Source: Lunularia cruciata
Lineage: Eukaryota > Streptophyta > Marchantiopsida > Lunulariales > Lunulariaceae
NCBI GenBank assembly: GCA_948567375.1
Contig: OX419755.1
Span: forward strand, 8,499,001 to 8,563,000
Direction: 5' to 3'
DNA: 64,000 bases
Shown here: in pieces, positions 13,946 through 46,600 of the stretch
How the letters are laid out: each line of letters begins with the position of its first letter
Numbering within the stretch: position 1 is the stretch's first letter
The notes under the pieces: generated by a model
What the model saw: only the letters and a program-made list of their open reading frames with translations
What the model was told of the DNA's origin: nothing
The model's database searches: none
Position numbers and translations under genes: made by a program

Positions 13946-14600
13946 ATGAAATTTTCTAAGTACTTAAGGGCCGGAATCATCTTCCCTGTCTTAAGTAGTG
14001 AATGGGTTTCCCCCATTGTCATTGTCCCAAAGAAGAAAACAGGGAAGATCCGAGTATGCCAAGACTTCCGGAAGTTGAACGCAGTCACAAAGAAAGATCA
14101 CCATCCCTTGCCTTTTACTGATACAATTTTAGATCAGGTAGCGGGTCATCCTTGTTATAGCTTTCTCGATGGATTTTTAGGGTACAATCAAGTATCCATT
14201 CAAGAAGAGGACAAGGATAAAACCACCTTCACGACCGATTGGGGCACTTTTGCTTACAATCAAATGCCTTTTGGGTTGTGTAATGCTCCTGCTACTTTCC
14301 AGCGGATGATGAATTCAATCTTCAAAGATTTCCTGCGCAAATTTTTGGAAGTTTTCATTGATGACTTTTGTGTGTTTGGGCGAAGAGATGTACATTTAGA
14401 TTACCTTCGCCAAACTTTTGAAAGGTGTCGTTTTGCCGGCTTGTCATTACACCTGGAGAAATGCTTCTTTGCAATGAAGGAGGGAATTCTTCTAGGGCAT
14501 TGGGTGTCAAGCCGAGGTATTGAAGTTGATGTTGAGAAGGTTAAGATAATCCAGCTTTGGAATCACCGAAGAACCTTCAGGAGCTGAGAGCCTTCTTGGG
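13946..14600 (+). pseudogene. E1 reverse transcriptase core
   Basis: RT domains appear in order: SEWVSPIVIVPKK, a KIRVCQDFRKLNAVTKKDHHPLPF block, the first catalytic aspartate in FLDGFLGYNQVSIQ, MPFGLCNAPATFQRMMN, and the catalytic VFIDDFCVFG. The thumb segment follows, up to DVEKVKII. All three catalytic aspartates are present. The domain itself is open; frameshifts lie just before it and just after. FIDDF is the form seen in Athila-like rather than chromovirus RTs. Confidence 0.92.
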
Positions 14601-15219
14601 ACATGTTGGATACTACAGATGCTTCGTGTCAAATTATGCAATGCTTGCTGCACCACTTACAAAGCTTCTGAAGAAATCCAAAGACTATCTGTGGGAAGCA
14701 AATCAAGAAGAAGCTTTCTAGGTGTTGAAAAAGAAACTGGTTGAAGCACCAGTTATGAGGACCTCGAATCAGGATGTCCCTTTTCATGTATATGTGGACA
14801 CTTCGTCCATGGCCATTGGAGTCATCTTAAGTCAGAAGGACAAAAAGAAGAAGGACTACTTGATGTATTGTGCCAGCCGACAACTTTCAGTTTTTGAAAA
14901 GAATTATTTGATGACTGAAAGAGAAGCACTCGGAATGGTGTATGCCTGCAAGAAATTTTGCCATTATCTGTTGGGGTACGAGTTTGTCTTTTATGTTGAC
15001 CATTACGCATTGCAACACTTGGTCAAAAAGGCAGATTTATCCGAGCAAATTGCAAGATGGATCTTGTTGTTACAAGAATTCACGTATACTGTACAAGTAA
15101 GGAAGGGAGCTTTGCATTTGAATGCAGACTTCCTGTCTAGGTTAGAAACTCAAGACCAGGAGTGGGAAATTGACGATCAGTTCCCTGACGAAGAGTTGTA
15201 TCAATTATCAGCAATGTGA
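14601..15219 (+). pseudogene. E1 RT connection and RNase H
   Basis: The frame open from 14722 carries the Ty3-type RNase H: VYVDTSSMAIGVILSQ, then REALGMVYACKKFCHYLLG, FYVDHYALQHLVKKADL, ARWILLLQEF and ADFLSRLE. The conserved D, E, D, D set is visible. It degrades the RNA of RNA-DNA hybrids during replication. A stop (TAG at 14719) and a frameshift near 14580 separate it from RT. Confidence 0.9.
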
Positions 15220-16533
15220 AGTATGAGGTATGCAGCTGAATATCACTATCTGCATACTCTCCATTGTCCTGAAGGGATGGACCTGGAGCAAAGGGCAGTC
15301 TTTCTCAAGAAAATGGGGCCGTACTAGCTTAAACACAGCATTTTATTTAAAATGGGCGAAGACAAAGCACTTTGGTGATGCTTGGAGTCATACAAAGTAG
15401 GAAGAGTGATTGAATCTTTACACTCCAAAGCATCGGGAGGACACTATGCTCTAAAGAATATTGTAAAGAAAATTCTTTCGGCAGGGTATTGGTGGCCTAC
15501 AATGTACAAAGACATGCACGCTCATATCCAAAGCTGTGATGCTTGTTAGAGAAGGGGGAAGCCGACGGGTACTTCTCAATGGCCTTTGAGACCAATTTTG
15601 CCTTTGGCCCCATTTGAGAAATGGGGGATTGATTTTGTGGGTCCTATTCAACCAGTGACCCAAGTCACAAGAAAGCGATACATTTTGGTTTGCATTGACT
15701 ATGCTACCAAGATGGTCAAAGCTGAAGCAACTCGTAGAGATGATGCTGAAACTGTGGCGGAATTTTTCTTTCAGAACATCATCTCCCGATATGGGTGTCC
15801 TCTGGAACTGGTCAGTGACCAAGGAACACATTTTTTGAATTCTGTAATGGAGGCGTTAACCAAGTACTTTCAGATTAAACATCGGAAGACGACTCCTTAT
15901 AACCCAAAAGCAAATGGCTTAACGGGAAAAGAAATTGGGTTACCTTGCAAAATTTTGAATAAGGTGACTGTCAATTATGCCTATGACTGGGATACAAAAT
16001 TACCAGCCGCGTTGTGGGCATATCAAATGACAAAAAAGATTACAACCAAACAAACTCTATACTTCTTGACATATGGCTTGCATCCCATACAACCAGTTGA
16101 ATTTGAAGTACCAACATATCGGGTTCTTTGCGAAGAACGAATGTCGGAAGAAGAAAGTCCGGATCTTTGTATCCATCAACTGATGTGGTTAGAAGAGAAA
16201 AGAGACGATGGAATGCAAACCACCAAAGAAGTACAAGCACAGAGAAAAGTCAGGCACAATAAGAGAATCAAGCTTGTAGCTGTACGTGAAGGGGATTTGC
16301 TTTTGTTGTATGACAATCGCCAAATATTTTTTCCAAGCAAGTTGCATTTGAGATGGATGGGTCCCTATCGAGTTCTTCATCTTTACAAAAATGGGTCCAT
16401 GCAGCTTGTAGACTTGGAAGGTAATCCTTTTGCCACTCGAGTAAATGGGTGGAGAATTCGGAGATATTGGACCATAGACTCGGAAGTTTCTAAGACACCC
16501 GAGGTCTATGTTCGCGGGGACGCTCACATTTGA
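15220..16533 (+). pseudogene. E1 integrase, no chromodomain
   Basis: The HHCC zinc-binding domain runs about 15421-15550 (SGGHYALKN ... HAHIQSCDAC). The core is open at 15586-16533 with the first Asp in WGIDFVGP and the second in LVSDQGTHF. The third acid should follow NGLT: E3 has NGLTEKANG, E1 has NGLTGKEIG, so the catalytic Glu appears replaced by Gly. The C-terminal domain (LHLRWMGPYRVLHL, GWRIRRYW) ends beside the 3' LTR with no chromodomain. A stop at 15547 interrupts the zinc domain. Confidence 0.9.
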
Positions 16534-20034: not shown

Positions 20035-21120
20035 ATATGGTAAAGAAGATTCTTTCCTTGGGGAACTGGTGGCCTATGATGTATAAAGACACGCATGCCC
20101 ATATCCAAAGTTGTGACGCTTGTCAAAGAATGGGGAAGCTAACGACTACTTCCCAATGGCCTTTGAGACCAATTTTACCATTAGCCCTATTTGAGAAATG
20201 GGAAAAGCGTTTTTGTGGGACCGATACAACCGATAACCTGAGTCACAAGAAAATGATACATTTTGGTTTGCACTTACTATGCTACCAAGATGGTCAAAGC
20301 TGAAGCAACTTGTAAAGATGATGCAGAAATAGTGGCAGAATTTTTTTTCTCCATATCATCTCCTGATATGGATGTCGTCTGGAATTGGTCAGTGATAGAA
20401 GGACATATTTCTTGAACTCTATGATGGAGGTGTTAACCAAATACTTTTAGATAAATCATCGGAAGACGACTCCTTATAATCCAAAAGCAAATAGCTTAAC
20501 AGAAAAGGCAAATGGGTTACTTTACAAAATTTTGAATAAGGTGACTGTCAATTATGCTTATGATTAGGAGACAAAGTTACCAGCCGCATTGTGGGCATAT
20601 TGACCGACAAAAAAGGTCACAACCAAGCAAACTCCATACTTCTTGACATACGGCTTGCACTCTATACTACTAATTGAACTTGAAGTACCAATATATCGGA
20701 TTCTTTGTGAGGAACGATTGTTGAAAGAAGAAAGTCATGATCTTTGAATCCATCAACTGATATGGTTAGAAGAGAAAAGAGAGGATGCAATGCAAACCAC
20801 AAAAGAAGTACAAGAATAGAGGAAAGTCAGGCACAATAAGCACATCAAGCATGTGACTACTTGCAAAGGAGATTTGGTTTTGTTATACGACAATCGCCAA
20901 ATATTTTTTCTAGGCACATTGCATTTGAGATGGATGGGGCCGTATCAAGTCCTTCATCTTAACAACAACAGGTCCATCCGTATCAAGTCCTTCATCTTAA
21001 CAACAACAGGTCCATTCAACTTGCAGACTTAGAAGGGCAACCATTTGCCACTTGAGTAAACGGGTGGAGAGTTCAGACATATTGGACCATAGACTCGGAG
21101 GTCTCTAAGACACAGGGACA
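20035..21120 (+). pseudogene. E0 integrase, continuation after E1
   Basis: It starts with the right ATATG target copy (20035-20039). It continues the zinc-binding domain (HAHIQSCDACQRMGK), the core, and the C-terminal domain found in E1 and E3, up to the polypurine tract. Many stops and frameshifts. A 38-bp tandem duplication (20941-21016) lies in the C-terminal part. Confidence 0.85.
20941..21016. repeat. 38-bp direct tandem duplication
   Basis: Two adjacent units (20941-20978, 20979-21016) both read CGTATCAAGTCCTTCATCTT and onward, differing only at the last base. This is a recent duplication inside the dead E0 integrase. Confidence 0.93.
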
Positions 21121-28070: not shown

Positions 28071-29270
28071 TTGAGGATTGGGCCATCAAACCATAAAGTC
28101 ACCATTCTTGTGACTAACACTACCAACACTACACATTCAGATACACCATCTTTTGATTATTGGGAATCAGATTTTGAAGAAGGAGCTTCAGGTGTGGACA
28201 CAAGCATGGAAGAGGAGACTTCCATGGAGGAGGATGAATCTGAATCTGATTCAGATGTGTATCCTTTGTGTGCTATGGATTTTGCACCTAAGCCAAAGGT
28301 TTTGAAGGACCCAGATAAATCACCATTGACACTTGAGGAGGTAAGAAGAAGGTTAGCTACCCTCAAGTATGGCCCAAATGTTACCAAGGAGAAGAAGGTG
28401 AGATTTGAGGAGATTTTCAGCAAGTTCATCCATGTGTTTGCTTTCAGTTACAAGGATTTGAAGGAAGTCACCTTGGAGGAGCACAAGATAGAGGTGGAGT
28501 CACATGCAAGACCAATCCACCAGAAACAACGTTGCATTAGCCCACCAATATCTTTGGTTGTGAAGGAGGAAATTGATAAGCTCAAGGAGGCTGGATTTAT
28601 CTTTGAGGTAGAGAATTCAGAGTGGGTGTCTCTAATTGTCATTGTGAAGAAAAAGAATGGCAAGCTTTGGGTATGCGTAGATTACAAGAAGCTCAATGTT
28701 GTTACCAAGAAGGACTACTACCCATTGCCATTCATTGATGAGATCTTGGAGGAGGTTGCAGGTCATGAGAGGTACAGTTTTGGAGATGGTTATAATAGAT
28801 ATAACCAAATCAAGATTGCACCAAAGCATCAACAACTCACCACATTCACCACACCTTGGAGAACTTATGCTTTCAAGGTCATACCTTTTGGGCTTTGCAA
28901 TGCTCTAGCCACATTCCAACATTTCATGAACAAGGTATTTGAACCTTTCATTGGGAAATTTGTGAGAGACTTCATTGATGACTTTTGTGTCTATGAGAGC
29001 AAGGAGGAGCACTTTGAGCACCTAATCAAGGTCTTGCAACACTTGGATGAGGCAAATGCATCACTCAACCTAGAGAAGTGCATTTTTGGATGTGAAGAAG
29101 GTCTACTTTTAGGGCACATCATCTCCAAGGATGGAATAGCAGTTGATCTTGAGAAGGTGAGGAAAATCTTCCATTCCCTTCAAGCTTGACAAAGTTATGC
29201 CAATTCTTGGGGATGGTTGGATACTATAGGAGGTTCATCTTCTTATTTTCCAACAAGGCTTATGCATTGA
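28071..29270 (+). pseudogene. E2 reverse transcriptase (N-terminal part of pol before E3)
   Basis: The frame is open at 28071-29189 through an acidic spacer, the RT entry EEHKIEVESHARPIHQKQR, the fingers (KLWVCVDYKKLNVVTKKDYY), the first aspartate in FGDGYNRYNQIKI, PFGLCNALATFQHFMNK and the catalytic DFIDDFCVYES. The thumb ends DLEKVRKI. A frameshift near 29190 precedes the E3 insertion. The last five bases are the left ATTGA copy. Confidence 0.9.
29266..29270. repeat. Target-site duplication ATTGA, left copy (E3)
   Basis: ATTGA recurs at 60396-60400, right after the other end of E3. Deleting E3 and one copy joins the E2 pol sequence in one frame (AYA then LTIYMKK). Confidence 0.93.
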
Positions 29271-31812
29271 TGTGACAACCCGGCAAATATCACTTTTGCG
29301 GTAATTGGGTAAGTACAAATTGTTCCCGTAGAGATACGAGTCAAGATTGGTCAAATACAAAGTCAAAGTAACACTTGCAATTCTTCTTGGTTGCGTCTTT
29401 AATCTCTTAGGTAGAAACTACACCTAGAAGAGAGTAACAAGCACTGATTTGCAGTCTTGTCATGAATTCACACTCCTTAATCACAACTCCATCAAATCTT
29501 TCCAAACAATCTTGATTGTGATGATTCAAGCTCTCCCAAAAATGGCACTTCACTGCAAAACGACTTTACCTCAGAATTGTGTTCCACCCCTCCACCGAAG
29601 GCACAACTTCCTCTATCAAAATTGCTTCACATCAACTTTGCATTGCACTAACAAATGTAGAATACTACCAACACTACAATTCCTCTCAGATCTATCAAGG
29701 CATTGCCTTGATTGCACTTCACTCAAGATTAAACACACAATAAAGATCAAGGCTGCGGAATCCAACATCCAACAAGCACTATGACTTGCACTTCAAAATT
29801 CTCCACACACTCACAAACACAATTGCAAAGTTGATACTCCGAATTAAGCTCAAGCAATGAGCACTACTTCACAGCACTTTGCTCTATCTATTCTCAAAAA
29901 TAATGAGCACTGAACAACATGATGCTGCAAATGCCACCCTTAAATAGCGAAGCAAACAACAGTTATCTTCCTAATGTACCTGTTCATAATGCCTCTACAA
30001 ACCTGCAGATCCGAAATGACAATGCACCTCTTCATATTTGCCTATTCAAATCTCAAATCAGTTACAAATCCGATCCAATGTCTACTTCTTCCTCGGCTTT
30101 GAAACCCAATCCCAAAGTAATGTTACTTCCTACTACTCTATCCTCGGGTTTCATAATTCCTACATCTTCTACTAGATCTAACAATTCTCTTTCCTGATCT
30201 GACATTTCACTAGTGGGTAATCTATCTAACTCCTGATCTGCTGACCCACTCTTCTCTATTGTCTCCAATGGTAACTTCAAAGACATCTGCACTCCTACTT
30301 CATCTACTTTGGGTTTGGCTCTAATGTCTTTCCGAAGTTTATCTATCTCTAACTTCACTAGATCTAATCTAATCATGATATTGTCTTCGACTTCCAATAT
30401 CTTCCTATCTACCCAAGTTCTGAGACTAATTAACAGAGCATTCAAGTCTGTATCCTTTGCATGTCTCCTCCTCGTCTCCTACACCAACAACTTCAACTCA
30501 TGCAGCCTCGTCTCTTCAATACAAACACTGGCTTCTGTACTCAGCATCACATTCATCCTAATTATGATCTCCTTCAATGGCTCCAATCTCATCTTCCTTT
30601 CACGCTCCCGATTTGCAAGCCAATCTTCCCTATACATTGCCAACTCTGCCTCAAACTTGGCTTTCACAATTTCCTTTTCCTTCTCCTTCTGCACAATCTT
30701 CTCCTCCTGATTACGAAGTAACTTTCGTAATCGCTCTTCTTCCCTATATCTCACTGTCAACTCCCGTTGCCATAGTTGCTTCTTCTCTTCTACATTCTCC
30801 ATCACTCTATCAAGCTCTTGTTCCTTCTCTACTACCCTCACGATAGCATGGATAATTTCTAGTCTAGAATCAGCAAACGGCTACTTCAAGATTTTATACT
30901 CTACTACTTGTCTCTCCCTTGCTAGGTCATTCTTCTTCACAAGTTCCTCTCGATACCTCACTTCTCTCTTCAAGTCCTCAATAACTTACACTACACTATT
31001 GCATCCCCTTGCAGTACTTCCCTTTCCTCCACACCTTGGATTATACTCTTCTTCAACTCCGAGTTCTCTTCTTCTAGTCTTGCCAAAACCTACAACACAA
31101 TCTTCACCTCCAGACATGTCGACTGCATTTCCTTCTTCTTGTGCTCTAATTTCACCAACAATGGGCACACAATTTCTTGCAGGTACTCCACTCCATCACT
31201 TGCACCTACTTCCACCTACGGAGAGATCTCCTTCTTTACCTCTTCTCCTCCCGATACTTGCCTTCTTCTTTGCAGTCGTCGTATCAAAATAGACGCTTCA
31301 CTTCCCGAGCTAGCACTCGCTTCTTCCCTTGCCTTGCTTGGACCCGCTTCACACTTTGCCTTGCGTCTCGACCAAACTCCTCTTTGAATCGTAATCTTCT
31401 TCTCCTCCGGCTCGGGTACCTTGTCCTCCAACTTTGCATTATTTTCTTCCTCGAGCTCCACCCAAACTTCTTCTTCTTCGGCAGTAGGCACCAACATCAT
31501 CTCCCCACCTTCATCACTATTGCTACTCGTATCCCCACTTTGCAGCGTGAGCTCTAGTTCCTCCTCATGTTCCGAGTCTTTGGACTTGCACTCGGCTTTG
31601 CCTTCCGAGTCTTCCTCTGATGACGCAATCACCACTATGCCTTTCCTTGGGTTTCCTCTCCTGGTCTTCCGAGGTCTTGTCTTCTCTACGTCTTTGCCTT
31701 CTCCTTGTCAACTCCGCTTCTTTGACTTTGGAGTACTCACTTCTACCTCCATGCTCTTGCCCGTTTGTGTGTAGTACTCATCAGTGCTTCAGATTTGAAG
31801 AATGTATTGTTG

Positions 31813-31817
31813 CTCCT
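31813..31817. repeat. Target-site duplication CTCCT, left copy (E4)
   Basis: CTCCT here and at 43256-43260 flank E4. The uninterrupted site in related LTR copies reads GCTCCTC or similar. The final T may be shared with the E4 terminus, so 4 or 5 bp. Confidence 0.8.
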
Positions 31818-32365
31818 GTCGTGCGTATATACATCGCTACACAACATACATCGCTGTCAACATCATACACTATAAGTCATAAACACAACTCACACATAAG
31901 TCATACATAGACTCTAAAGTGCCACAATAATCAGACTGCTTAACACTCTCAACTCAACTCAACTCAGCTCAGTACTTGATCTGTCACTCTATAAACTGCC
32001 AACAACTGGGCACTGATTACAGTCAAGCCACACCCACTCAAGCATAGAGAATCCAGGTGACGCTCGCCGGCCTTTGTCCACCATAGCTAGGAACTCAAAG
32101 GCTCAACATCAGAGAAGTGAGCTCTCTGTAGCTCACTTCAAAACTATACCTCCCCGGACTCAAGCTAGCACTGGAACCCTAACGGTCCCGCTGACGGTGT
32201 GAACGGTGCAAAGTGACGGTGGGCCCCACCGTGAAGTCAGTACCCTGAACACCAAATCAGACTGTCGGAAAGTAGTCCCTGAGAAACTACTAGAATAACT
32301 CTAACTACTATCACTAGAACTCCTGTGTCCGAGCAGCTAGATGCGGAACTACAAATGGCGTGACA
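31817..32365 (-). repeat. E4 3' LTR with duplicated end segment
   Basis: 32365-31928 matches the right-hand LTR (TGTCACGCCATTTGTAG ... TCTGATTA on minus). A further 110-bp segment (31927-31817) ends GCACGACA and gives matching TGTC/GACA termini. The same 110-bp segment also occurs on the internal side at 32370-32481, giving an A-B-A arrangement. The right LTR lacks A. Exact LTR limits are therefore uncertain. Confidence 0.7.
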
Positions 32366-32369
32366 ACTG

Positions 32370-32481
32370 TCGTGCGTATATACATCGCTACACAACATAC
32401 ATCGCTGTCAACATCAACATCATACACTATAGAAACACAACTCACACATAAGTCATACATAGACTCTAAAGTGCCACAATT
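32370..32481 (-). repeat. 110-bp segment repeated on both sides of the E4 3' LTR core
   Basis: Near-identical to 31817-31927, apart from a small indel near CATCAACATC. On minus it starts TGTGGCACTTTAGAG, straight after a purine-rich GCTAGGGAGGCAA. That makes it an alternative LTR start with its own polypurine tract. Confidence 0.75.
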
Positions 32482-32647: not shown

Positions 32648-33034
32648 TCAAGTACATCTAGGACATAACCATTGTCCCTGAGGAACCACCATGAGGGGAG
32701 GAGTCATACATGCCATATGCCATCCTCTCAAACAGCTATCACACACTAACATAGTAGCAGCTCCATCAAAAGAGCCACATAACATACACCTCAAGCCTGC
32801 ACGTACAAGTGCCAAGCTTGGGTCCATAGTACCATCAATGTTTGGAAGGTGGCATGGCGCACAACTGCACACATGATCCTTCCAAACAACACCATCACGT
32901 CCTTCTAACACAAGGACTCCAGATGGCAAAACCTCACGCACTCTCAAGATAGTGCAGCCTGTAGAAACATCAAGTGTCGTTGGTGCTGTCTGCTGTAGAT
33001 ATACATAGTCGCCTGGATGAAATCGACGGATCAA
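32648..33034 (-). pseudogene. PHD finger at the C-terminus of the E4 integrase
   Basis: The 129-codon open segment begins with the integrase C-terminal barrel (IRRFHPGDYVYLQQTAPTTL, VLVLEGRDGVVW). It ends in a textbook Cys4-His-Cys3 PHD finger: CMLC, CDSC, WHMAC and CPRC, with the aromatic GWH and QWLCP positions. PHD fingers commonly read histone H3 N-terminal tails; here one stands where chromoviruses carry a chromodomain. The inferred role is to guide integration to a chromatin state. The segment is open, but a frameshift or stop near 33035 separates it from the integrase core. I see all eight zinc ligands. Confidence 0.88.
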
Positions 33035-33990
33035 GGGTCTATAACCCCCTCCTCAAATGGTAGCATAGCGTAAAGTATCTCTATGCTGAGCAATCGCCAA
33101 GTTCTCAAAGGCCATCGGCATCACTCTCCGAAAGATCTCTGCCCGTTGAGAACATGCGCTCATCCATACATTGGGGTCATCCAAGTCCAAAACTACAGTA
33201 GCATCTCGACGAATGGCTACAAGTAAATCTGGATCTCGTCCATAGAGTAGAAATTATGGAGAGAAGGATGCTAAGGAGGCTTGCCGGCTGAACCAATAGC
33301 CCATGGCCAACCAAGGTAACTAGAGATCCCAATCTCCCTAGTGGCCTCTCTGCAAACCATACTTTTGCAATCCTCTCTTCACCGTCTGAACCACTCTCTT
33401 TGCTAAGCCATCTGCCTCAGGGTGATCTCGGGATGTTGTACGATGATCAATCAAAGCCTTGTCACACAAGACCTGAAACTCCCCCAAGAACTTTGTACCC
33501 TGATTAGTAAAACCTCAGCTGGTGCACCAAAATGACTAAGAACTCAATCCAGGAACAAGTAAGTTGTCCCTTCACTAGACTTGTCAAGAAGTGCCACCAA
33601 CTCAATCCACTTGGAGAAGTGCTCCACCATCACCAAAACATACCGATGATGTGTCACAGTCAGCGGTAAAGGTCCGGCAAAGTCCAAACTCCAATGGTAA
33701 CCCAATCCCATGATAGGTAATGGGTGTAATTGTGGCGTAAGAGCATTGAATGATGCTCTAACTTGGTCACAAACCACACATCTGGCAACAAACTGTTGTA
33801 CCTCGGTCTGCATATCGTGCCACCAATAATGACTCTGGAGTAAGCTATATGTACGCTTTACTCCAAAATGTCCTAGCTCCTCATGAGCATGACGGACCAA
33901 CTGTGGTCTTTGTGATGGAAGTGGTACTACTCGCACTCTACCATCCTCCCATACACGCAAAAGGTGTCTACCCTCCAATCTGAACCATCT
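33035..33990 (-). pseudogene. E4 integrase core
   Basis: The frame open at 33978-33544 has the zinc domain (HAHEELGHFGVKRTYSLLQ ... CVVCDQ) and first Asp in WSLDFAGPL. Downstream, after a stop and a frameshift, LTNQGTKFLGE shows Asn at the second catalytic position, and HPEADGLAKRVVQ shows Lys where Glu is expected. Two of three catalytic acids are thus lost. The rest, down to about 33035, matches the integrase C-terminal region. Confidence 0.88.
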
Positions 33991-33993
33991 GGC

Positions 33994-34650
33994 TCACTGA
34001 AGAACACGGTTTCTCTCCTTGGCCCCAACTGTGCCACCCACAACACCAGTGCAAAGATAGTCTATCACTAAGACATCATCATGAATGTCTCGCTGAACTA
34101 TACCAATATCTTCACTCTCTGGATCTGTGACCTCAATAACTCCTCTTGTATGCGCTGAGAGAGATACCACCAAAGCCTCTGCAAATATACACAGAAAGGC
34201 CGATGCATGCCAACCTGGCACCATCTCCTCATCTGTCTCACCATGCCAACGTGCTCCGGTCTGATCCTGCTGGTTGGGACATGGGTTTCTACTCAACCCA
34301 TCTGCATCACGGTTCACCACTCCAGGTCTGTGAACAACCGTGAAATCATACTCCTGTAAAATCAGAGCCCATCCTGCAAGCTTCCCTGAAAGCTTATCGG
34401 ACTCCATCAACCACTTCAGTGGCTGATGATCAGTGATGAGAGTGAAGGGGTTATCAAATAGGTAACATCGGAAATTTGCTACTGCCCAAACTGCTGCCAA
34501 GCACTCTCCCTCATATGAACTATACTTTGCCTCTGCTGAATTGTTGGAGCGACTAGCATAGGCCACCACAAACTCCTTCTCCTCATCATCATGCTAGGTG
34601 AGCACCGCTCCAAGCCCCAACATACTCCAATCAGTGTGAACTTGAAATGG
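33994..34650 (-). pseudogene. E4 RNase H
   Basis: The frame open at 34569-33994 has VAYASRSNNSAEAKYSSYEG, CLAAVWAVANFRCYLF, TLITDHQPLKWLMES and NRDADGLSRNP. A stop near 34594 precedes it. Ty3-type RNase H. Confidence 0.9.
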
Positions 34651-35526
34651 TCATCCCCTGATCGGTCTCCTGAAAATAGGAGCAGATGTCAACCTCTCCT
34701 TGAGCTCTACAAAAGCTCTCTCCTGCTCATCTCCCCAACACCACTCCTGTGTAAGCTTGGTCAGCTTTGTCAAGGCCTTGGCAATGGCACTAAATCCTCT
34801 AACATAGCGGCGATAGAAGTTTGCCAACCCAAGGGATGCTCGCACTCTGCTCACATCCGTAGGCCGAGGAATATGTGCAATAGCCTCCACCTTGGTCTGT
34901 TGAACACCAAGTCCTCCGGGGTAGATAGTGTGACCCAAATACTCAACCTGCTCGTGGAAGAACCTACACTTCCCAGGATGTAGTTTGAGTCCATGAGATC
35001 TCAACCTCTCAAACACCTCCAACAATTGTCTCTCATGCTCCTCCATAGTAGTGCTATAAACCAAAATGCCATCATTATAGCACCAAGTAAAATCCAATCC
35101 AGCTAGGATCCTATCCATGACCCTCTGGAACTCAGCAAGAGCGTTCTTCAACCCAAATGGCAGGAACCTCCACTCATGTAACACATCCTTACCGTGAGGA
35201 TCAATAGCCCAAACTGCTGTCTTGGACTTATCCTCCTCCCTAATCGGTAACTGATAATATCCCGCTTGAAGATCCAAAGTACTGAAGACCTTTGCATGCC
35301 CAATCGCATCAAAAATCTCCTTCGGTGTAGGCATGGCATACCGATCAGCCCTGGTCTGTCGGTTGATAGGACGGTAATCTTCACACATCCGCCTATCTGT
35401 ATAGTTGCCATGCATATCCTTCTTGGCTGGCATCACTGTCGCTGATGCATACTCTCCATGTGAAATCTCCACCAAACCAGCCTCAAAAAGGTCACTACTC
35501 CGGCTCTGAATCAATGTCCTCTCCAT
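34651..35526 (-). pseudogene. E4 reverse transcriptase
   Basis: An open 291-codon frame with RRMCEDYRPINRQTRADRY, FSTLDLQAGYYQLPI (first Asp), LPFGLKNALAEFQRVMDRIL, and CYNDGILVYS where Y-I-D-D-I is expected. The second active-site Asp is Gly, so it should be inactive. Thumb and connection (VEYLGHTIYPGGL, RASLGLANFYRRYVRG) are well kept. It continues in the same frame as the upstream methyltransferase segment, apart from stops. Confidence 0.92.
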
Positions 35527-35760
35527 ATCACTATATCAATAAGGACGTCGGAAAACTGGTGTGTTGCTAGTCAGCTCAATCCGTATACCTGGTCCCTTCA
35601 GAGCAACCAAATCCTTCATATTGAAGGCAAACCAACTTGTGTGACTCCTTAAGAACCTCCAAACCCTCTGTCTTTCCTCTCCAGTAAGCTTGGGTCCAAG
35701 ATCTGGCTCCCAAGTATCCTCTGTAACTGTAGTAGGAGTGGAAGACGTACTGACTGGCTG

Positions 35761-37316
35761 CTACACTGGGCCCTTGGGAGCAATAGTGTCATGCTCCCAA
35801 CCACTAGAGGTCCCAACCTCTGTGTGAAAAACTCCCTCCACTTTGGCTGCAAGCTCCACACGTCCTCTAGCTGCATCCTTTGTGGACCAAGGGTGTAATC
35901 CAAGTAGCCCACTCTCACCTAGATGGACTCCAAGTAGACCACTCTCCCTAGTAGCTATTGGATGTGTCCCAAGAATACCCTGTCCACTCGGTCCATCGCC
36001 CCTAGCATGTGCCTGAATCGTCTTGATAGGCACAGGGCTCACAAGTGTCCGAGTGGTGATGCCTATCAAGCCCATCCTACGTTGCTCTGCCAAGCCAAGG
36101 CTCACAATCCAGGTCAAATAGTTCAGGTCCATAGCCTGACCTAACACCTAACGCCTAGATGCCTCTGACACTACTGGAACAGCAGTAATACCATTGCAAA
36201 AACCCATCACCCGCTCTCTCTCATCAACATTGGGCTCCACCAACTGCTGTAACTGTGAGTCCCAAACAAGTCCAGGTCCTCCCTCTCAAAAAGCATGAGA
36301 GCCAAGGACACTCATGAGTGTGGGAAATGCAGCTCTAGGCTGTCCAACTAAGTTTACCACTGCCATAGGTGACCTATCAGCCACTCCCACTGTCTGAGAC
36401 TGGCGTCCAACATCCAAGATATCATCAACAAGAATGTGGTCTAGTCGCTGAATCCCATCATAACTACGTTGTAGAACCTCTCTGGGTAAGAGGTTCGTCC
36501 ACCAAAGACAAAGACGATGAGCTTGTGATCCCACTCTGGTTGCATCTAACAATACAGCAGGTCCCATCCATAAATGGACCTGATGTGTACTCGCCACCAC
36601 TCTAGTGCAAGAATCACCCATCAATGGAATGTTCTCCAAAAGGTAAGCTAGAGAAACAGATTGATGAACTTGGAGATGTCGTAGTATCTGTAACATCTCC
36701 CAAAACACACCAGAACAAGGATCCTGAAGATCCAAACCGTGGCCCGCACGTGTATGTCCCTGACATGGCCATCCAGCACCAAGTGAATAGGCCCATGTCT
36801 CTCTAGGTCATGCGCCCCTGGGAGTAAGGAAATGTCTCCTGGTAAGGACTTTTGGTAACCTCTGACTGATGACATCGGTAATAACTCCGGATACCGATAG
36901 GCCAAGTGTGCCACATGATGTAGAGAGACTTGCCTAATAGTCTCATCTCTCTCTACATACAAGTACCTCTGTACTCAAATACCTGCCTATAACACCACAG
37001 CTAGTTTGGTGCTGATCCCACCAAACAACTCCAATAGGCATATCCCCTCTACTGGATACTGCCAAGCAATGAGTGTGGTATCCAGAGGTGTAAAAGCAAT
37101 TGCCTCTGGAGGCTCATCCTCACACTCATCTCCTGATGGTACAAAGGCTCCACTCCAAGCCAACTGCACCAACTGATTTGCATGATGCTGCAATGCCTCC
37201 TCTGAACTCCACAATGGAACATCCAAGGTGGATGGAACAATCCCACTTGTACTCCAAAGCCGAGTGATCTCCTTTGGTACTGGAGTATCCACTGCATGGG
37301 CATTTCCCTCCAACAA
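35761..37316 (-). pseudogene. C5-cytosine DNA methyltransferase domain fused upstream of E4 RT
   Basis: The minus-strand translation shows the C5-methyltransferase motifs in the usual order over about 305 residues: I, CLLELFGGISTKLAVVL (37037-36990); a YVERDE segment that would bind the cofactor; IV, AGWPCQGHTRAGHG with the catalytic Cys (Pro-Cys codons 36767-36762); VI, LLENIPLMGD (near 36636); VIII, VGSQAHRLCLWWTN (36537-36493); IX, RSPMAVVN; X, VLGQAMDLN (near 36125). About 95 residues of unknown type precede motif I, and a spacer leads into RT. Two stops near 36985, a frameshift near 36775 and stops near 36284, 36150 and 35761 disrupt it. The motifs are not permuted as in plant DRM enzymes. 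Likely role: methylating cytosines in DNA; target unknown. Confidence 0.85.
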
Positions 37317-37344
37317 GTCACCAGGCCAAGTGAAAGATTTAGCT

Positions 37345-39098
37345 CAAACTCGGCTTTCATTGTCTCCTTCTCCTTCTCCTTCTGTACAACCTTCTCCTCC
37401 TGATTACAAAGTAACACTCGTAATCGGTCTTCTTCTTGGTATTGTGCCGCCAACTCTCTTTGCCAGAGTTGCTTCTTCTCTTCCATACTCTCCATCACTC
37501 TATCGAGCTCCTGATCTTTTGCTGCTACTCTTGCCATAGCATGGATTACTTCTACTCTTGAATCAACAAATTGCTGCTTCAAGATTTTGTATTCTGCTAC
37601 TTGTCTCTCTCTTGCTATGTCACTCTTCCTCACAAGATCCTCTTGATAGCTCACTTCTCTCTTCAGGTCTTCAATTACCTGACTTCTCTCTATTGCCTCC
37701 GCTCGTAGTACTTCCCGTTCCTCCTCACCTCGGGTTACACTCTTCTTCAACTCCAAGTTCTCTGCTTCTAATCGCGCTAACACCTGCAACACAATCGTCA
37801 CCTCCGGACATATCGACTGCATCTCCTTCTTCTTGTGCTCCAACTTCACCAACAATGGACACACAATTTCTTGCAAGTACTCCACTCCATTTCTCGCAAC
37901 TACTTCTTCCTGCATAGAAATCTCCTTCCTTACCTCTTCTTCACCCGATACTCGCCTTCTCCTTTGCAGTCTTTGTATCGGAATTGACGCCTCACTTCCC
38001 AAGCTTTCTCTGACCTCTTCCTTCACTTTACTCGGCCCCGCTTTACACTTCACTTTACGTCTTGAGCGAACTCCTCGCTGTACTACGATCTTCCTTTCCT
38101 CGGGCACAGTTACTTTGTCCTCCAACTGTGTGTTGTCTTTGGCCTCCATCTCAGCTTGCACTTCTTCTTCTTTGTATCCGTCAGCTGCTGGCGCAGATGT
38201 CATCTCTCCCACTTCATCACTATCGCTGCTCGTATCTCCACTCTGCAATGTTAGCTCAGGCTCCTCCTCGTGTTCCGAGTCTTCTGTTTTGAGCTTGGCA
38301 TCTCCTTCTGAGTCCTCATCCTCCTACTCAATTACCACCATACCTTGCCTCGAGTTACTTCTGTGCATCTTCTGAGGTATCTTGATATCTTTGGCTTCAC
38401 CTTGCCGACCTCTCTTCTTTGATTTAGCAGTGCTTGCTTCTATCTCCATGCTCTTACCCGTCTTCATGTAGTATTCATCAGTGCTTCGGATTTGGAGAAT
38501 GTACTGCTGTTCCTCCATGTCGACTTCTCTTCTCAAGTCGGGATGGAAATGAGACACCATTTTGCTTTGCTCCACCGAATTGAGCAAATTCAACCCGAGG
38601 TAAAAATGTGCTGCAAATGGCACGATGTAGTGTGGTGGCCACTTATCCTGCAAATTCCATACCATCTGTCTCGTCCTCCCATGGAAGCATCTTGCCCAAT
38701 TAATAGGCCCTCTTGCAAACAACTAATGGAAGAACACCGCTTGGTGTTTCATCACATAAGTTGTTCTCTTTGGCTTCAAGATTGCCATGAGAGCACTCAC
38801 GATCCCTCTCTTCACTGGATCCTTGTAACTCTCAACCTTATACCCATTCTTTGTTCTCTTTGAAGAGAAAGCGTTCCTCACTTCATGAGTTTCCTGAGCT
38901 ATCTCTCCCTTCCCCAAGAACGTGGCTCCTTGCTCCAAGCCTACCTCCTTCCCGAGTACGAGTCTCCAATCCGACTCTGTCCAGCGAGCCGGATTTCCTC
39001 TCTTCTCCTCTTCTTTGGGTCCATCGAGACACTTACTCTCGATGATTTCTGTCATGAATCCTGGAAACTTACATTCCAATTCCATGCCAAAAAGGAGT
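37345..39098 (-). mobile_element. Captured fragment of a family-L LTR ORF inside E4
   Basis: On minus, a single frame runs from about 39085 to 37349 with only two stops (near 38722 and 38330). It covers residues from FMTEIIESKCLDGPKEE through KPKRTTYVMKHQAVFFH, the acidic linker (SGDTSSDSDEVGEMTSAP) and the coiled coil, to KEKETMKAEFE. Neither LTR end is present. It lies between E4 protease and methyltransferase and is in the protease frame. It resembles the E5/E1 subtype (EEEVQAEMEAKDN) more than the surrounding E3 LTR. A 37-bp duplication marks its right edge. Confidence 0.82.
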
Positions 39099-39160
39099 GA
39101 TGTACTGTGTCAAACCACCACATTCCAGTTCCATGTGATGTATTGTGTCGAACCACCACC
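39085..39160. repeat. Roughly 37-bp duplication at the edge of the captured fragment
   Basis: TGATGTACTGTGTCAAACCACCAC followed by ATTCCAGTTCCATG is repeated as TGATGTATTGTGTCGAACCACCAC. The ATTCCARTTCCATG word belongs to the LTR ORF, the rest to E4. So the junction itself was duplicated after capture. Confidence 0.7.
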
Positions 39161-39319
39161 AAGAGATGTCTGGATCTGAAATGGACACCTCTCCACATCA
39201 GTCTTCTGTAACTCCAGACCAACAACTGCAACCTTCCCCAACATAAGAGGCTGCGCACCAGAGTCTAACAAGACTCTCTGTGGTGTATAGACCTTCCCTG
39301 AAGGTCCCACCCTAAACAA
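39110..39319 (-). pseudogene. E4 aspartic protease N-terminal part
   Basis: The minus frame reads VLLDSGAQPLMLGKVAVVGL, the D-S-G-A active-site loop of a retroviral-type protease, after YTPQR. The protease is cut off after about 45 residues by the captured LTR-ORF fragment, so its C-terminal half is missing or displaced. Confidence 0.75.
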
Positions 39320-41350
39320 AAAATCCCCCTTTGGTTATCCAATAGGACAACACCAGGTGTAAACCGCGCTCTCTCAAAGGCCGGTCTAGCTGGCAACTTC
39401 TCCAGTCTAGCCGCTGCTGCCTGCCATAAACCACTGGTCGCTGAACGGATCCCATGCTCCTCAACCAAGTCAGCTCCACTACCAACCACCTTTGCTCTAG
39501 TAGTAGGAACTGCACCATTCCTACTCTCACACAACATGGCAGCCAACCGGAACATTGGGGCTGGGTCAACTCCCAATTTAAACATGTCATTGGCTGAAAA
39601 CAAAGGATGCTGCATAATCAACTAAGCCGCCCCCAACATCATGCTAGACTCAGTCTGTGTAGTAGTAGGAGGCTGACTAGTAGGTAGTCCATCATGTACT
39701 CCATCACCACCTACCACACCTGCACTGGGACGTCTAGAACCCATGGATGTCGTCTGCAATGCCTCAGATAGCATGAAAGACTGGGGAAGTTTGACCTGTC
39801 TCCCAACCTCTCCTCTCTGTAGGTCCAACTCCACTGATGCTCCTCTAGGCTTTGGAGCACGTACTGCACTCCTAGTCACTGCTGCACATGCATCCACCTG
39901 TGCTGCTCCGCACATGAAGTCCAAAGCATCTCTATCACCAGCATATGAGGTGGAAGCCTCAACACCCGAATCTGATCTCCTCTGAGCAATAGCTATACTA
40001 GCCAACCTCTGCTCCAACTGCTCAATCCGAGTAGCCATAGCTATGTCAGAAGTAAGTGCAAGTACTGCACCCCTACTAGGTGTAGATCCTCTACCACCAC
40101 CTCTACCACCTCGTCCTCCATGAACTGGAGCTCCTCTACTACCTACCATAGCAGCCCTACCACTCCGTAACTCCGGGTGTAGGTCAAAACACCGGTCACT
40201 AGTGTGACCAAATCTGTGGCAGTGCTCACACTGCCTCTGTGCTGGCTGTAATGCACCAGAGGTATCAGGTCTGCTGCCCTGAGTACACTCTCTCCTTTGG
40301 TGAGGTCCACCACAAGTCCAACAAGCAACACTACTTCTCACTGGCTGCTGCTGACCCGAAAATGAGGGTAAGGGTCTAACTCCACTAGGCCCTCCACTCG
40401 CTCCATAAGATCTGGGCTGTCCACCTTGTCCTCGAAAACCAACTAGGCGTGGTGCACTCTGCTACACTCTAGAAGAAGTCACAACCGTGGATGAGGTCTC
40501 CCTACCAAATCCAGACCACTCTCTCCTCCACCATGTTGAGCTCAATACGCTCAGCCAAACCAGAGACCACTGCCAACGTGGGCGAAGTAGCCTGCAACAA
40601 CGTAGCATCACGAACTCTACGTCGCAACTCCTTGTCCAGTATCTCATACCAAAATTGGACTGCCTGGGCCTCAGTAACTCCTTGAGTGAAACTGATCAGC
40701 CGCCTCATGCAAGTGTATGCCTCGCGTAGGCTCTCTCTAGCCTTCCACTGGAACTCCTGCAAGCTCCTCAGCTTGTCAGTCCGCACTCCCTGGTAGTTCT
40801 GCCTCAAACACAGGAAGAACTCCACCATGGGGTTAAACCCCGGTACCACCCCACCTCTTGCAGCGGTACATCCTCTCGTAGTAGCACTATCTCTAGCTAG
40901 TGCACCTCCACTAGCTCCACCAACACTACTTGAGCTAGAACTTGTGGGTACAGCCGATCTACTCCTGGCCACCGAGCCTGAAGTCATGGAGACATAGTGT
41001 GGAGACCAATACTATCTCCATAACTCAATCTCTTCCAAATGAGCTCTCCTGAACTCATGGTAGTCATCCATCGGCGGACCCTCCAGATGCTGGAACAACC
41101 CCTTCTATGCCATGAAGGGTGTGAACAAAGTTGGGTTCCGCATCTACTGCAGATCACACCAACTATCGAACTCCTGGATGAAGTCATCAAACTCAATGGT
41201 ACATACTGTACCAGAGTAATGCCAAGGGCCTTTGGAGGCCCCATAAATCTCGTCCATGTCCCACAACAACGGTGCGGACACACCAAGTGCACTCTCAACT
41301 GAATCAGCTCTTGTGTCGAACTCCAACTCAGAGTCAATCTCCTCCCTCAC
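39320..41350 (-). pseudogene. E4 gag with two zinc knuckles
   Basis: On minus: a poorly kept N-terminal part (41350-41144); an open capsid-like segment 40987-40502 (PMVEFFLCLRQNYQGVRTDK, SLREAYTCMRRLISF, ELRRRVRDATLL); a frameshift; then 40341-39622 with two knuckles, CWTCGGPHQRREC and CEHCHRFGHTSDRC, and a Gly/Arg-rich linker; then a further open stretch to 39265 that leads to protease. Typical plant gypsy gag layout. Stops and frameshifts throughout. Confidence 0.82.
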
Positions 41351-42803: not shown

Positions 42804-43255
42804 TGTAATCAGATTGCTTAACAGTCTCAACTCAACTTAACTCAAATCAGTACTTGATTTGTCACTCTATAAATTGCCAACAACAGGGCACTGATTACAG
42901 TCAAGCCACACCCACTCAAGCATAGAGAATCCAGGTGACGCTCGCCGGCCTCTGTCCACCATAGCCAGGAACTCGAAGGCTCAACATCAGAGAAGTGAGC
43001 TCTCTAGTGCTCACTTCGAAACTATACCTCCCTAGACTCAAGCTAGCATTGGAACCCTAACGGTCCCACTGACGGCACACTCGATGGTGCGAACGGTGCA
43101 AAGTGACGGTGGGCCCCACCGTGAAGTCAGTACCCCGAACACCAAATTAGACTGTCAGAAAGTAGTCCTTGAGAAACTACTAGAATAACTCTAACTACTA
43201 TCACTAGAACTCCAGTGTCCGAGTAGCTAGATGCGGAACTACAAATGGCGTGACA
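42804..43255 (-). repeat. E4 5' LTR (core, 452 bp)
   Basis: On minus it starts TGTCACGCCATTTGTAG at 43255 and ends TCTGATTACA at 42804. It matches 32365-31928 closely. CTCCT follows on the plus strand. It carries an extra 10 bp (CACTCGATGG-type) near 43078, compared with the other copy. Confidence 0.82.
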
Positions 43256-44510
43256 CTCCTCCACGTCAACTTCTCTTCTCAAGGTGGGATGAAAGTGAGA
43301 CACCATTCTATTGCACTCTGCCAAATTGAGCAAATTCAACCTGAGGTAGAAATGTGCTGCAAATGGCACGATGTAGTGTAGAGGTGACTTATCCCACAAA
43401 TTCCACACCATTTGTCTCGTCCTCCCATGGAAGCACCTCGCCCAATTGATAGGTTCACTTGCAAACATCTTATAGAAGAACACCACTTGGTGTTTCATCA
43501 TATAAGTCGTTCTCTCCGGCTTCAAGATTGCCATGAAAGCACTCACAATCCCTCTCTCCAATGGATCTTTGTAACTCTCGACCTTATACCCATTCTTTGT
43601 TCTCTTTGAAGAGAAGGCATCCCTCACCTCTTGGGTTTCTTTGGCTACCTCTCCCTTCCCCAAGAACGTGGCACCCTGCTCCGTACCTACCTCTCTTCCG
43701 AGCACCAATCTCCAATCCGACTCTGTCCAGCGAGCCGGTTTTCCTCTCTTCCCCTCTTCCTTGAGGCCATTGAGACACTTACTCTTGATTATCTCGATCA
43801 TGAAACTTGGAAAACTTACGTTCCAATTCCACGCCAAGAAGGTGATCCCAAGTCGGCTCAAGACTTTGATTCTCGCGATCACATCTAACCTCCAAATTGC
43901 ATGATTTCTCACTACAAATTTGGATTTCTTCTTTCCTCCTCCCATCTTTCCTACTTCCTCATTGTCTCTTGGTTTAACTCTCTTGAATTCTCCTCTACAC
44001 ACTAGCGCGTCTTCAACTCTACTTCCCTTCCCATGATCTCAAGCAGGATGACTCCTCAACGGTGAAGGAAAAATTCCTCAACATTGCTTCATTGTTAGCC
44101 CGATTTTTATAAAGTCGTGCCTTCTTTGTCTCTCTTCAATTCAAGTTTCTACCAAGAAATCACACCTCTTGCATGCATTTGTCACTGTCAATTGTACTTC
44201 ACGCGTATGGCCACCGGTTTTGAACGGTCCTTTCTTGAATTTCTCACCCCAAAGAAAGGTTGTTACAATGTCTTTGCCTTGGGTTGAGCTCCCCCCTGAT
44301 ACAAAGCCTTCTTACTTTGGGTTGTATGCTGACAGGGCAAGTCCGAGTACTTTGCCTTATGACCCGAAGCCACTTTACCTCAAGTTTCATTTCAAAGACT
44401 CTTTTCTTCGCCTTCTTTAGTCATACAGGCGCAATCCAACTTCTCTATACACTTCTTCTTCTCCATTTTGAAAAAAACAAAAAATGTGGGTACCACATAC
44501 CCTCTCTCTC

Positions 44511-46600
44511 AAATGTGAGTGTCCTCGCGAACATAGACCTCGAGTGTCTTAGAGACTTCCGAGTCTATGGTCCAATATCTCCAAACTCTCCACCCGTTTA
44601 CTCGAGTGGCAAAAGGATTGCCCTTGAGGTCTACAAGCTGCATGGACCCATTTTCATAGAGATGAAGAACTTGATAGGGCCCCATCTATCTCAAATGCAA
44701 CTTGCCTGGAAAAAATATTTGGCAATTGTCATATAACAAAACCAAATCTCCTTTGCATACATCCATAGGCTTGATATGCTTATCGTGCCTGACTTTCCTC
44801 CGTGCTTGTACTTCCTTCGTGGTTTTCATTGCATCGTCTCTTTTCTCTTCTAACCACATTACTTGATGGATCCGAAGATCTTGGCTTTCTTCCTCCAACA
44901 GTCGTTCTTCGCAAAGAATCCGATATGTCGGTACTTCAAATTCAACTGGTAGTATGGGATGCAAGCCATATGTTAAGAAGTATAGAGTTTTTTTGGTTGT
45001 AATCTTTTCTATTGTTTGATATGCCCACAACACGGTTGGTAATTTTGTATCCTAGTCATAAGCATAATTGACAGTCACCTTATTCAAAATTTTGCAAAGT
45101 AACCCATTTGCCTTTTCCGTTAAGCCATTTGCTTTTGGGTTATAAGGAGTTGTCTTCTGATGTTTAATCTGAAAGTACTTGGTTAATGCCTCTATTACAG
45201 AGTTCAAAAAATGTGTCCCTCGGTCACTGACCAATTCTAGAGGACACCCATATCGGGAGATGATGATTTAAAAGAAAAATTCCGCCATAGTTTTGGCATC
45301 ATCTCTACGAGTTGCTTCAGCTTCAACCATCTTGGTAGTATAGTCAGTGCAAACCAAAATGTATTGCTTTCTTGTGACTCGGGTCATTCGTTGAATGGGA
45401 CTCACAAAATCAATCCCCCATTTCTCAAATGAGGCCAAAGGCAAAATTGGTCTCAAAGGCCATTGAAAAGTAGCCATTGGCTTCCCCATTCTTTGACAGG
45501 CATCATAGCTTTGGATATGAGCATGCGTGTCTTTGTACAGCATAGGCCACCAATACCCCGCCAAAAGAATCTTCTTTACGGTATTCTTCAGAGCATAGTG
45601 TCCTCCCGATGCTTTGGAGTGTAAAGATTCAATCACTCCTCCTACTTTGTATGACTCCAAGCATTGCCAAAGTACTTTGTCTTTGCACATCTTGAATACA
45701 ATGCTGAGTTTGAGCTGGTATGGCCCCATTTTCCTGAGAAAGAATGCCCTTTGCTCTGGGTCCATCCCTTCAAGACAATGGAGAGTATGCAGATAATGAT
45801 ATTTTGCTGCATACCTCGTACTTCACATTGCTGTTAATTGATATAACTCTTTGTCAGGGAACCAATTGTCAATTTCCCACTCCTGGTCTTGAGTTTCTAA
45901 CCTGGACAGGAAGTCCGCATTTGAATGCAAAGCTCCCTTCCTTACTTGTACAGTATATGTGAATTCTTGTAACAACAAGATCCATCTTGCAATTTGCCTG
46001 GACAAACCTGCCTTCTTGACCAAATGTTGCAATGCATAATGGTCAACATAGAAGACAAACTTGTATCCCAATGGGTAGTGGCAAAATTTCTTGCAGGCAT
46101 ACACCATCCCGAGTGCTTCTCTTTCAGTCATCAAATAGTTCTTTTCAGAAATTGAAAGTTGTCGGCTGGCATAATACATTGGGTAGTCCTTCTGACATAG
46201 AAGACAAACTTGTATCCCAATAGGTAGTGGCGAAATTTCTTGCAGGCATACACCATCCCGAGTGCTTCTCTTTCAGTCGTCGAATAGTTCTTTTCAGAAA
46301 TTGAAAGTTGTCGGCTGGCATAATACATTGGGTAGTCCTTCTCGTCCTTCTGACTTAAGAAAACACCAATGGCCATGGACGAAGTGTCCACATATACATG
46401 AAAAGAGACATCCTAATTTGGGGCTCTCATAACTGGTGCTTCAACCAGCTTCTTCTTCAACACCTGGAAAGCTTCTTCTTGATTTGCTTCCCACAGATAG
46501 TCTTCGGATTTGTTTAGAAGCTTTGTAAGGGGTGCAGCAAGCACTGCATAATTTGACACGAAGCGTCTATAGTATCCAACATGTCCCAAGAAGGCTCTCA
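44511..46600 (-). pseudogene. E3 integrase and RNase H remnants
   Basis: On minus, integrase occupies about 45765-44560: zinc domain GGHYALKNTVKKILLAGYWW and HAHIQSYDAC, first Asp WGIDFVSP, second LVSDRGTHF, and an intact NGLTEKANG with the Glu that E1 lost. The C-terminal domain ends at the polypurine tract. RNase H (46391-45823) contains a 149-bp tandem duplication. Further pieces of the RT connection (AFLGHVGYYRRF) lie at 46540-46600. Confidence 0.88.
46047..46344. repeat. 149-bp tandem duplication in E3 RNase H
   Basis: Two adjacent units begin CATAGAAGACAAACTTGTAT at 46047 and 46196 and end near TAGTCCTTCTGA. Only a handful of differences separate them. The length breaks the frame. Confidence 0.88.

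Follow-up and report, generated by a model that had tools for sequence, protein, structure and literature searches.

The subject of this report is E4, a decayed Ty3/Gypsy-type element on the minus strand (43255-31817) of a 64,000-nt window from Lunularia cruciata (GenBank assembly GCA_948567375.1, contig OX419755.1, positions 8,499,001 to 8,563,000; coordinates below are those of this whole stretch). Its interior holds remnants of a Gag with two CCHC knuckles, a protease, a C5-methyltransferase, a reverse transcriptase (RT), an RNase H, an integrase and a PHD finger; these are enclosed by repeats in the order A1 - coding - B1 - A2 - B2 (Table 1). Judged from its sequence and relatives, the enzyme is a DNMT3-type cytosine methyltransferase placed between protease and RT. 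The E4 copy itself is a dead pseudogene, unable to make the enzyme, because of frame breaks, stops and a nested insertion.

Repeats A1 and A2 share 412 of 438 aligned bases (Kimura two-parameter distance 0.062; 92% identity with gaps in a blastn self-comparison), and B1 and B2 share 107 of 109 bases aligned without gaps (93% with gaps, blastn); the A2/B2 border is precise to about one base. The outer ends read TG...CA, and GGAG flanks both sides as a 4-bp target duplication. The sequences around the element (31500-31821 and 43257-43699) are 86% and 76% identical to another repeat copy (blastn): E4 had jumped into a copy of a repeat family. A further copy of that family is nested within E4 (38203-38952). 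Repeat order, TG/CA ends, GGAG copies and matching flanks together indicate that the integrated unit had split repeats, of the DIRS-like A-coding-B-A-B arrangement (examined in E4 alone), yet a short target duplication as from a DDE integrase. Two full, identical long terminal repeats (LTRs) are not present, B being absent from the left end and the repeats being split. A primer-binding site was sought by eye; ATCAGAG, just inside A1 (42806-42795), belongs to the primer-binding sequence for initiator tRNA that is common in plants. The nested-insertion region resembles other copies in the window and E4's own flanks, and tblastn with E4 relatives gave no match between 39149 and 37331.

Table 1. 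Features of E4, listed from its left to its right terminus.
Feature	Position	Strand	Remarks
Repeat A1 (left terminus, begins TG)	42806..43255	-	Preceded by target copy GGAG at 43259-43256
Gag remnant	39316..41257	-	Start-like MDEIYGASKGP at 41257; tblastn with Marchantia P0105, 65% and 45% identity; CCHC knuckles at 40323-40279 and 40230-40189; 5 stops, one frame change
Protease remnant	39149..39310	-	LLDSGAQPLMLG at 39271-39236; 65% identity to P0105 over 54 residues
Nested insertion of other repeat family, ~1.8 kb	37341..39106		Approximate limits; interrupts protease-DNMT linker
Predicted DNMT3-type methyltransferase, N-terminal linker and motifs I to III	36778..37331	-	Frame A; 2 in-frame stops
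Predicted DNMT3-type methyltransferase, motifs IV to X and tail	35764..36777	-	Frame B (that of RT); 2 in-frame stops
Stop of open reading frame (ORF) 1, TAG CAG CCA	35755..35763	-	Fits leaky consensus UAG CAR YYA of tobacco mosaic virus (TMV) type
ORF2, first part: RT, RNase H, integrase zinc domain, start of core	33509..35760	-	5 in-frame stops; Pfam RVT_1 7.6e-27, RT_RNaseH 8.6e-26, Integrase_H2C2 2.7e-18
ORF2, second part: remaining integrase and C-terminal PHD finger (32788-32651)	32651..33508	-	Other frame; 4 stops; Pfam PHD 2.9e-10; 81% identity to Marchantia P0081 over 274 residues
Repeat B1	32368..32480	-	From blastn B1/B2 match
Repeat A2	31928..32365	-	From blastn and alignment to A1
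Repeat B2 (right terminus, ends CGACA)	31817..31927	-	Followed by target copy GGAG at 31816-31813

The methyltransferase domain and its relatives

Six C5-methyltransferase motifs, labelled by consensus, follow one another in canonical order along the minus strand (37037-36109), as the initial annotation had proposed. These are motif I, LLELFGGIS (37037-37011); motif IV, GWPCQG (36774-36736); motif VI, LLENIPL (36642-36622); motif VIII, AHRLCLWWTN (36537-36493); the motif IX region (36339-36310); and motif X, LGQAMDLNYLTW (36147-36109). A frame change divides the domain: motif I and its neighbours are read in one frame, and motif IV onward in the frame of RT, again as annotated. Elsewhere in the window, tblastn with E4 relatives gave no DNMT match at E 1e-4.

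A match to the Pfam family PF00145, as the initial annotation expected, was confirmed for most of the relatives scanned and not, above the cut-off, for this copy. Because E4's own score lies below the cut-off, the methyltransferase claim rests on homologues; 12 of 14 scanned pass it, with 27 to 49 bits, and P0081 and P0118 give no match. A phmmer search with the 348-residue DNMT piece (X at stops) returned 59 homologues (best E=1.4e-109), and tblastn of L001, a retroelement contig described below, matched the E4 domain with 48% identity over 234 residues and 43% over 117. The methyltransferase is therefore not a chance resemblance. Profile ranking against the PDB placed DNMT3 above DNMT1, CMT, DRM and bacterial C5-methyltransferases, and the fold of the E4 relative P0002 is that of DNMT3. 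DNMT1 and CMT do not occur among the 50 rows of the alignment VIA-align, from which no conclusion is drawn. A DRM type was ruled out, since the motif order is not rearranged and the ranking favours DNMT3. Enzymes of the DNMT3 type are those that animals use to set new methylation marks.

Searches with a Sphagnum protein and with an alignment gave 60 and 165 homologues, respectively, the best 120 of the latter being examined by name. Across searches, at least 175 distinct related proteins were collected, part of them Gag-protease only. Named hosts are Marchantia polymorpha, M. paleacea, Riccia sorocarpa, Calypogeia fissa and several Sphagnum species; in M. polymorpha, an annotated Gag-protease-DNMT protein of 1278 residues (P0105) stands for a cluster of 18 sequences. 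Scanning of genome contigs yielded one relative, L001, out of 153 stretches. Scans of viral contigs returned 11 stretches with the A3 pattern, six with ORF2 of L001 and none with protein P0115, with no relative among them.

Proteins of Marchantia, Sphagnum and Calypogeia have the DNMT after the protease, and L001 shows the whole order; both the place of the enzyme between protease and RT and the PHD finger ending the integrase ORF, noted initially for E4, are shared by relatives. The Gypsy domain set (protease, RT, RNase H, DDE integrase) was found by Pfam in E4 and L001, the protease being recognised by its motif and a sub-threshold Pfam match. The broken state of the copy and its own sub-threshold PF00145 match would agree with a host DNMT3 gene having been inserted once into this single element, but the shared layout refutes this and leaves such an accident practically no weight. 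The enzyme thus belongs to the element, as first annotated, and is a standing part of a retroelement family.

The stop codon between methyltransferase and RT

L001 (contig CADCWO010000201.1, 9285 bp) is a retroelement without internal stops. It is of eukaryotic type, yet was binned in a cyanobacterial metagenome-assembled genome. Its ends share 127 identical bases, which look like an assembly cycle and from which a circular molecule cannot be concluded. ORF1 runs past the contig start, its likely beginning lying at the other end (8582-9283), and ends in the order Gag - protease - DNMT (PF00145 6.8e-12; aspartyl protease under its cut-off). ORF2 encodes RT, RNase H, integrase and PHD. The two share one frame and are parted by TAG CAA TCA, to which TAG CAG CCA of E4 is homologous in place. 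Both fit UAG CAR YYA, a context called essential for TMV readthrough (PMC2754532).

The ORF1 stop of E4 is the sole UAG CAR YYA site among the 1637 TAG trinucleotides on both strands of the window, where base composition predicts 3.4 such sites; that of L001 is the sole one among 101 TAGs of its plus strand. At one given TAG, the context would arise by chance with a probability of 0.0021 in the window and 0.0012 in L001; the sites are homologous, so these values are not independent. Motif X was found in 50 homologues, of which 11 end exactly 88 residues later and 16 within 82 to 88; the remainder end elsewhere, many apparently shortened or spliced. Several metagenome proteins end at the homologous stop position. 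The annotated models P0069, P0107, P0110, P0111 and P0118 look spliced and were excluded from this argument.

The layout of L001 and the homologous UAG kept in E4 thus put the enzyme with Gag, ahead of what is probably a recoding stop, with RT following in frame after it. The initial annotation of a methyltransferase fused to Pol is correct as regards the shared frame; it needs amendment in that the enzyme ends the Gag-protease ORF of L001, before the leaky-type UAG that E4 shares. It might be objected that the UAG at 35763-35761 is mere decay and that the DNMT was fused directly to Pol. E4 has many other stops, and models P0107, P0110 and P0111 (Marchantia) and P0118 (Sphagnum) continue from DNMT into RT; they are four of the five proteins in which motif X is followed by 130 residues or more. 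Those plant models, however, look spliced across the stop, judging from their sequences, whereas the otherwise open L001 shares both the UAG, at the homologous position, and its rare context, and several metagenome proteins end there. Decay has only an outside chance of being the explanation. The identity and layout of the element as read here are considered very probably correct, and programmed readthrough at the UAG is probable, at a somewhat lower level of confidence.

Role and origin of the element-borne enzyme

The explanation judged best overall, with a rough probability of 0.7, is an element of the form Gag-protease-DNMT3, leaky-type UAG, RT-RNase H-integrase-PHD, in which DNMT3 would act on the element's own complementary DNA (cDNA) and the PHD finger would steer insertion. 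Most ribosomes would halt at the UAG, yielding DNMT3 at the level of Gag, and readthrough would give a rarer Pol fusion. DNMT3 would be packed with Gag into virus-like particles and would set de novo methylation on the double-stranded cDNA, either ahead of integration or as it takes place. New copies would then arrive marked like silent host DNA, and both their expression and their harm would be damped. Steering would be achieved by reading of the histone H3 tail by the PHD finger of the integrase; its best PDB matches are the PHDs of CHD4, KDM5, PHF12, PHF21A and ATXR5, some of which read unmodified H3. For the element's own cDNA as the main substrate of the enzyme, the chance may be put just short of even. 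Methylation of cDNA was proposed for DIRS elements of Symbiodinium by de Mendoza et al., and self-recognition, protection from deamination and slowed transposition were listed as possible benefits (PMC5890265).

With regard to constraint, L001 and Marchantia share 48.8% identity in the DNMT, 27.8% in Gag-protease, 66.5% in RT-RNase H and 63.3% in integrase-PHD; between L001 and P0115, identity is 88% in the DNMT and 77% over the whole of ORF1. The DNMT of E4 differs from that of L001 by 0.42, 0.33 and 0.65 at the three codon positions (335 codons). The domain seems, from these comparisons, to be kept more strictly than Gag and less strictly than RT and integrase. Marchantia matches E4 more closely than L001 does in the DNMT (63% versus 45%), in RT (73% to P0069 versus 61.3%) and from the end of the integrase to the PHD finger (83% versus 63%). 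This speaks for a capture before the lineages parted, and a single DNMT3 capture preceding the separation of L001 and bryophyte elements is likely. In a quick tree of DNMT domains (72 of 177 rows, chosen for coverage of 170 or more of the 260 DNMT positions), E4 groups with Riccia and M. paleacea (Shimodaira-Hasegawa-like approximate likelihood-ratio support 86; an open fork, not starred). More tentative, and rather doubtful as a whole, is the fuller account of one ancient capture in a streptophyte Gypsy element, kept because DNMT3 packed at the Gag level methylates the element's own cDNA while a histone-reading integrase picks the site.

Against the identification of the domain, the PF00145 score of E4 is low (E=0.0036, 17.2 bits, below the cut-off of 22), and the stretch 36777-35764 gave no PF00145 match at E 0.01. 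Several other observations weigh against the reading of E4 as a readthrough element with a self-methylating DNMT3. After motif X, the tail of E4 has 115 residues, compared with the usual 82 to 88 in relatives. Within this tail (35950-35885) lies a short repeated stretch, ESGLLGVHL / ESGLLGLHP, which may help to explain its length. The upstream protease motif is missing in seven of 33 homologues, the DNA around the UAG was compared in two elements, E4 and L001, and the RT of E4 is 62.6% identical to Marchantia P0110, an incomplete RT model, which is barely above the 61.3% to L001. As a test of selection, the ratio of nonsynonymous to synonymous substitution rates (dN/dS) was dropped, synonymous sites being saturated (proportions of differing sites pS 0.74, pN 0.37) and the E4 row being dead. 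If copies were born methylated, depletion of CpG would be expected; it is slight in L001 (0.82 overall), and in E4 the values for Gag and RT-integrase (both 0.40) compare with 0.42 for the window, the DNMT part alone being lower (0.26). CpG depletion was therefore dropped as evidence of self-methylation, the remainder of E4 being close to the window and L001 little depleted. Finally, the enzyme of the related element of Klebsormidium gave no methylation in yeast, a result that its authors called inconclusive, as human DNMT3B failed too (PMC5890265).

That last result would also suit a domain that is no longer a DNA methyltransferase and serves as an RNA modifier or a nucleic-acid-binding part of Gag, as would its position on the Gag side of the stop and the lack of a P-C-Q motif in Marchantia gene model P0107. 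Conservation of catalytic motifs speaks against such a loss: by simple patterns (first match, no alignment check, 175 listed proteins), C occurs in 75 of 75 matches to motif IV P-x-[QN], ENV in 87 of 99 matches to motif VI, and the second R of motif VIII in 91 of 117. Fold and profile are likewise those of DNMT3, and loss of the DNA methyltransferase function is judged distinctly improbable. Somewhat less remote, although still unlikely, is an action on host chromatin, by which the DNMT would arrive with the integrase complex and methylate either the insertion target or transposons that compete with the element. Nuclear DNA is the established substrate of DNMT3 enzymes, and the element bears a PHD finger matching those of the proteins listed above; however, protease processing would be expected to put DNMT and PHD on separate proteins, and a leaky stop would mean that most DNMT is made without integrase.

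As to origin, the DNMT might have been captured separately in Klebsormidium and in bryophyte elements. Two separate captures are reported within Symbiodinium DIRS elements (PMC5890265), and no Klebsormidium name occurs among the matches listed, which for the alignment search were the best 120 of 165. Set against this, both kinds of element are described as having Gypsy domains, repeats of DIRS-like form and a DNMT3 without rearrangement, and L001, not known to be from Klebsormidium, diverges from the bryophyte elements in step in DNMT, RT and integrase. A single capture is preferred, and separate ones are given about the same small weight as an action on host chromatin.

If the fuller, more tentative account is true, a retroelement would be writing its own silencing mark. 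The 2018 paper left open why a transposon should bear a type of enzyme that serves to silence transposons (PMC5890265), and the presence of the family in the genetic model plant Marchantia polymorpha makes the question testable there. If the enzyme is encoded with Gag, ahead of a recoding stop, a different dose and a different site of action would be expected. Five DNA methyltransferases, of classes MET, CMT and DRM, have been attributed to Marchantia (PMC5784723); this count leaves out element-borne enzymes and may need additions.

Elsewhere in the window, remnants of other, distant Gypsy-type RT/integrase regions lie at 4949-6243, 14051-16095, 20067-20669, 28362-29287, 46601-44947 and 60457-61869, with 23 to 46% identity to E4 relatives and 60% in one 25-residue piece (tblastn). 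Two adjacent 148-nt copies (46046-46193 and 46195-46342), 97% alike, lie inside the RNase H region of another element.

Comparison with known systems

DIRS elements are not known to leave a target-site duplication, and E4 differs from them in having GGAG on both sides. They also have a tyrosine recombinase in place of a DDE integrase, whereas Integrase_H2C2 and rve domains were found here, with no PF00589 among the matches of the scanned pieces. SymbioDIRS-Dnmt3 of Symbiodinium resembles E4 in its A-coding-B-A-B repeats and in its DNMT3, which lies in a polyprotein with RT, but uses a tyrosine recombinase (PMC5890265); E4 encodes a DDE integrase and is flanked by a 4-bp duplication of its target. 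SymbioLINE-Dnmt is likewise a retrotransposon with a C5-methyltransferase, in an upstream ORF; it is a long interspersed nuclear element with an orphan DNMT lineage, whereas E4 combines LTR-type domains with DNMT3 (PMC5890265). A 2025 paper mentions DNMT3s in LTR Copia and DIRS elements, referring to reports from streptophytes and dinoflagellates (PMC12344493). Host DNMT3 of land plants, as in Physcomitrium, has a similar catalytic domain (by description, not by sequence), but is a host gene and not a domain of a Gag-Pol element (PMC6453930). The AlkB-carrying elements of Phalaenopsis also represent a plant Gypsy lineage with an acquired nucleic-acid-modifying domain; theirs is an N6-methyladenosine RNA demethylase in an extra ORF, with no DNA methyltransferase (PMC9289625).

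The initial annotation knew of no description of this architecture in land plants, and the nearest relatives of E4 by themselves make a land-plant host likely. In the full-text literature, with most subscription papers, preprints and supplements outside its scope, no description was found in bryophytes, nor of the leaky-stop layout, nor of the PHD finger; bryophyte spread, a Gag-side DNMT, a leaky-type stop and a PHD finger on the integrase may thus be new. The kind itself is already known: KnitGypsy-Dnmt3 of the streptophyte alga Klebsormidium nitens is a Gypsy element with an unrearranged DNMT3 and, according to a figure legend, DIRS-like repeats (de Mendoza et al. 2018, PMC5890265). The main text of that paper uses none of the words PHD, Gag and readthrough. 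Compared by description and not by sequence, KnitGypsy-Dnmt3 and E4 agree in the Gypsy domain set, in a DNMT3 without DRM-type rearrangement and in DIRS-like repeats. They differ in that the algal DNMT is described within the Pol polyprotein ORF, whereas in E4 and L001 DNMT and RT share the frame but are parted by a UAG.
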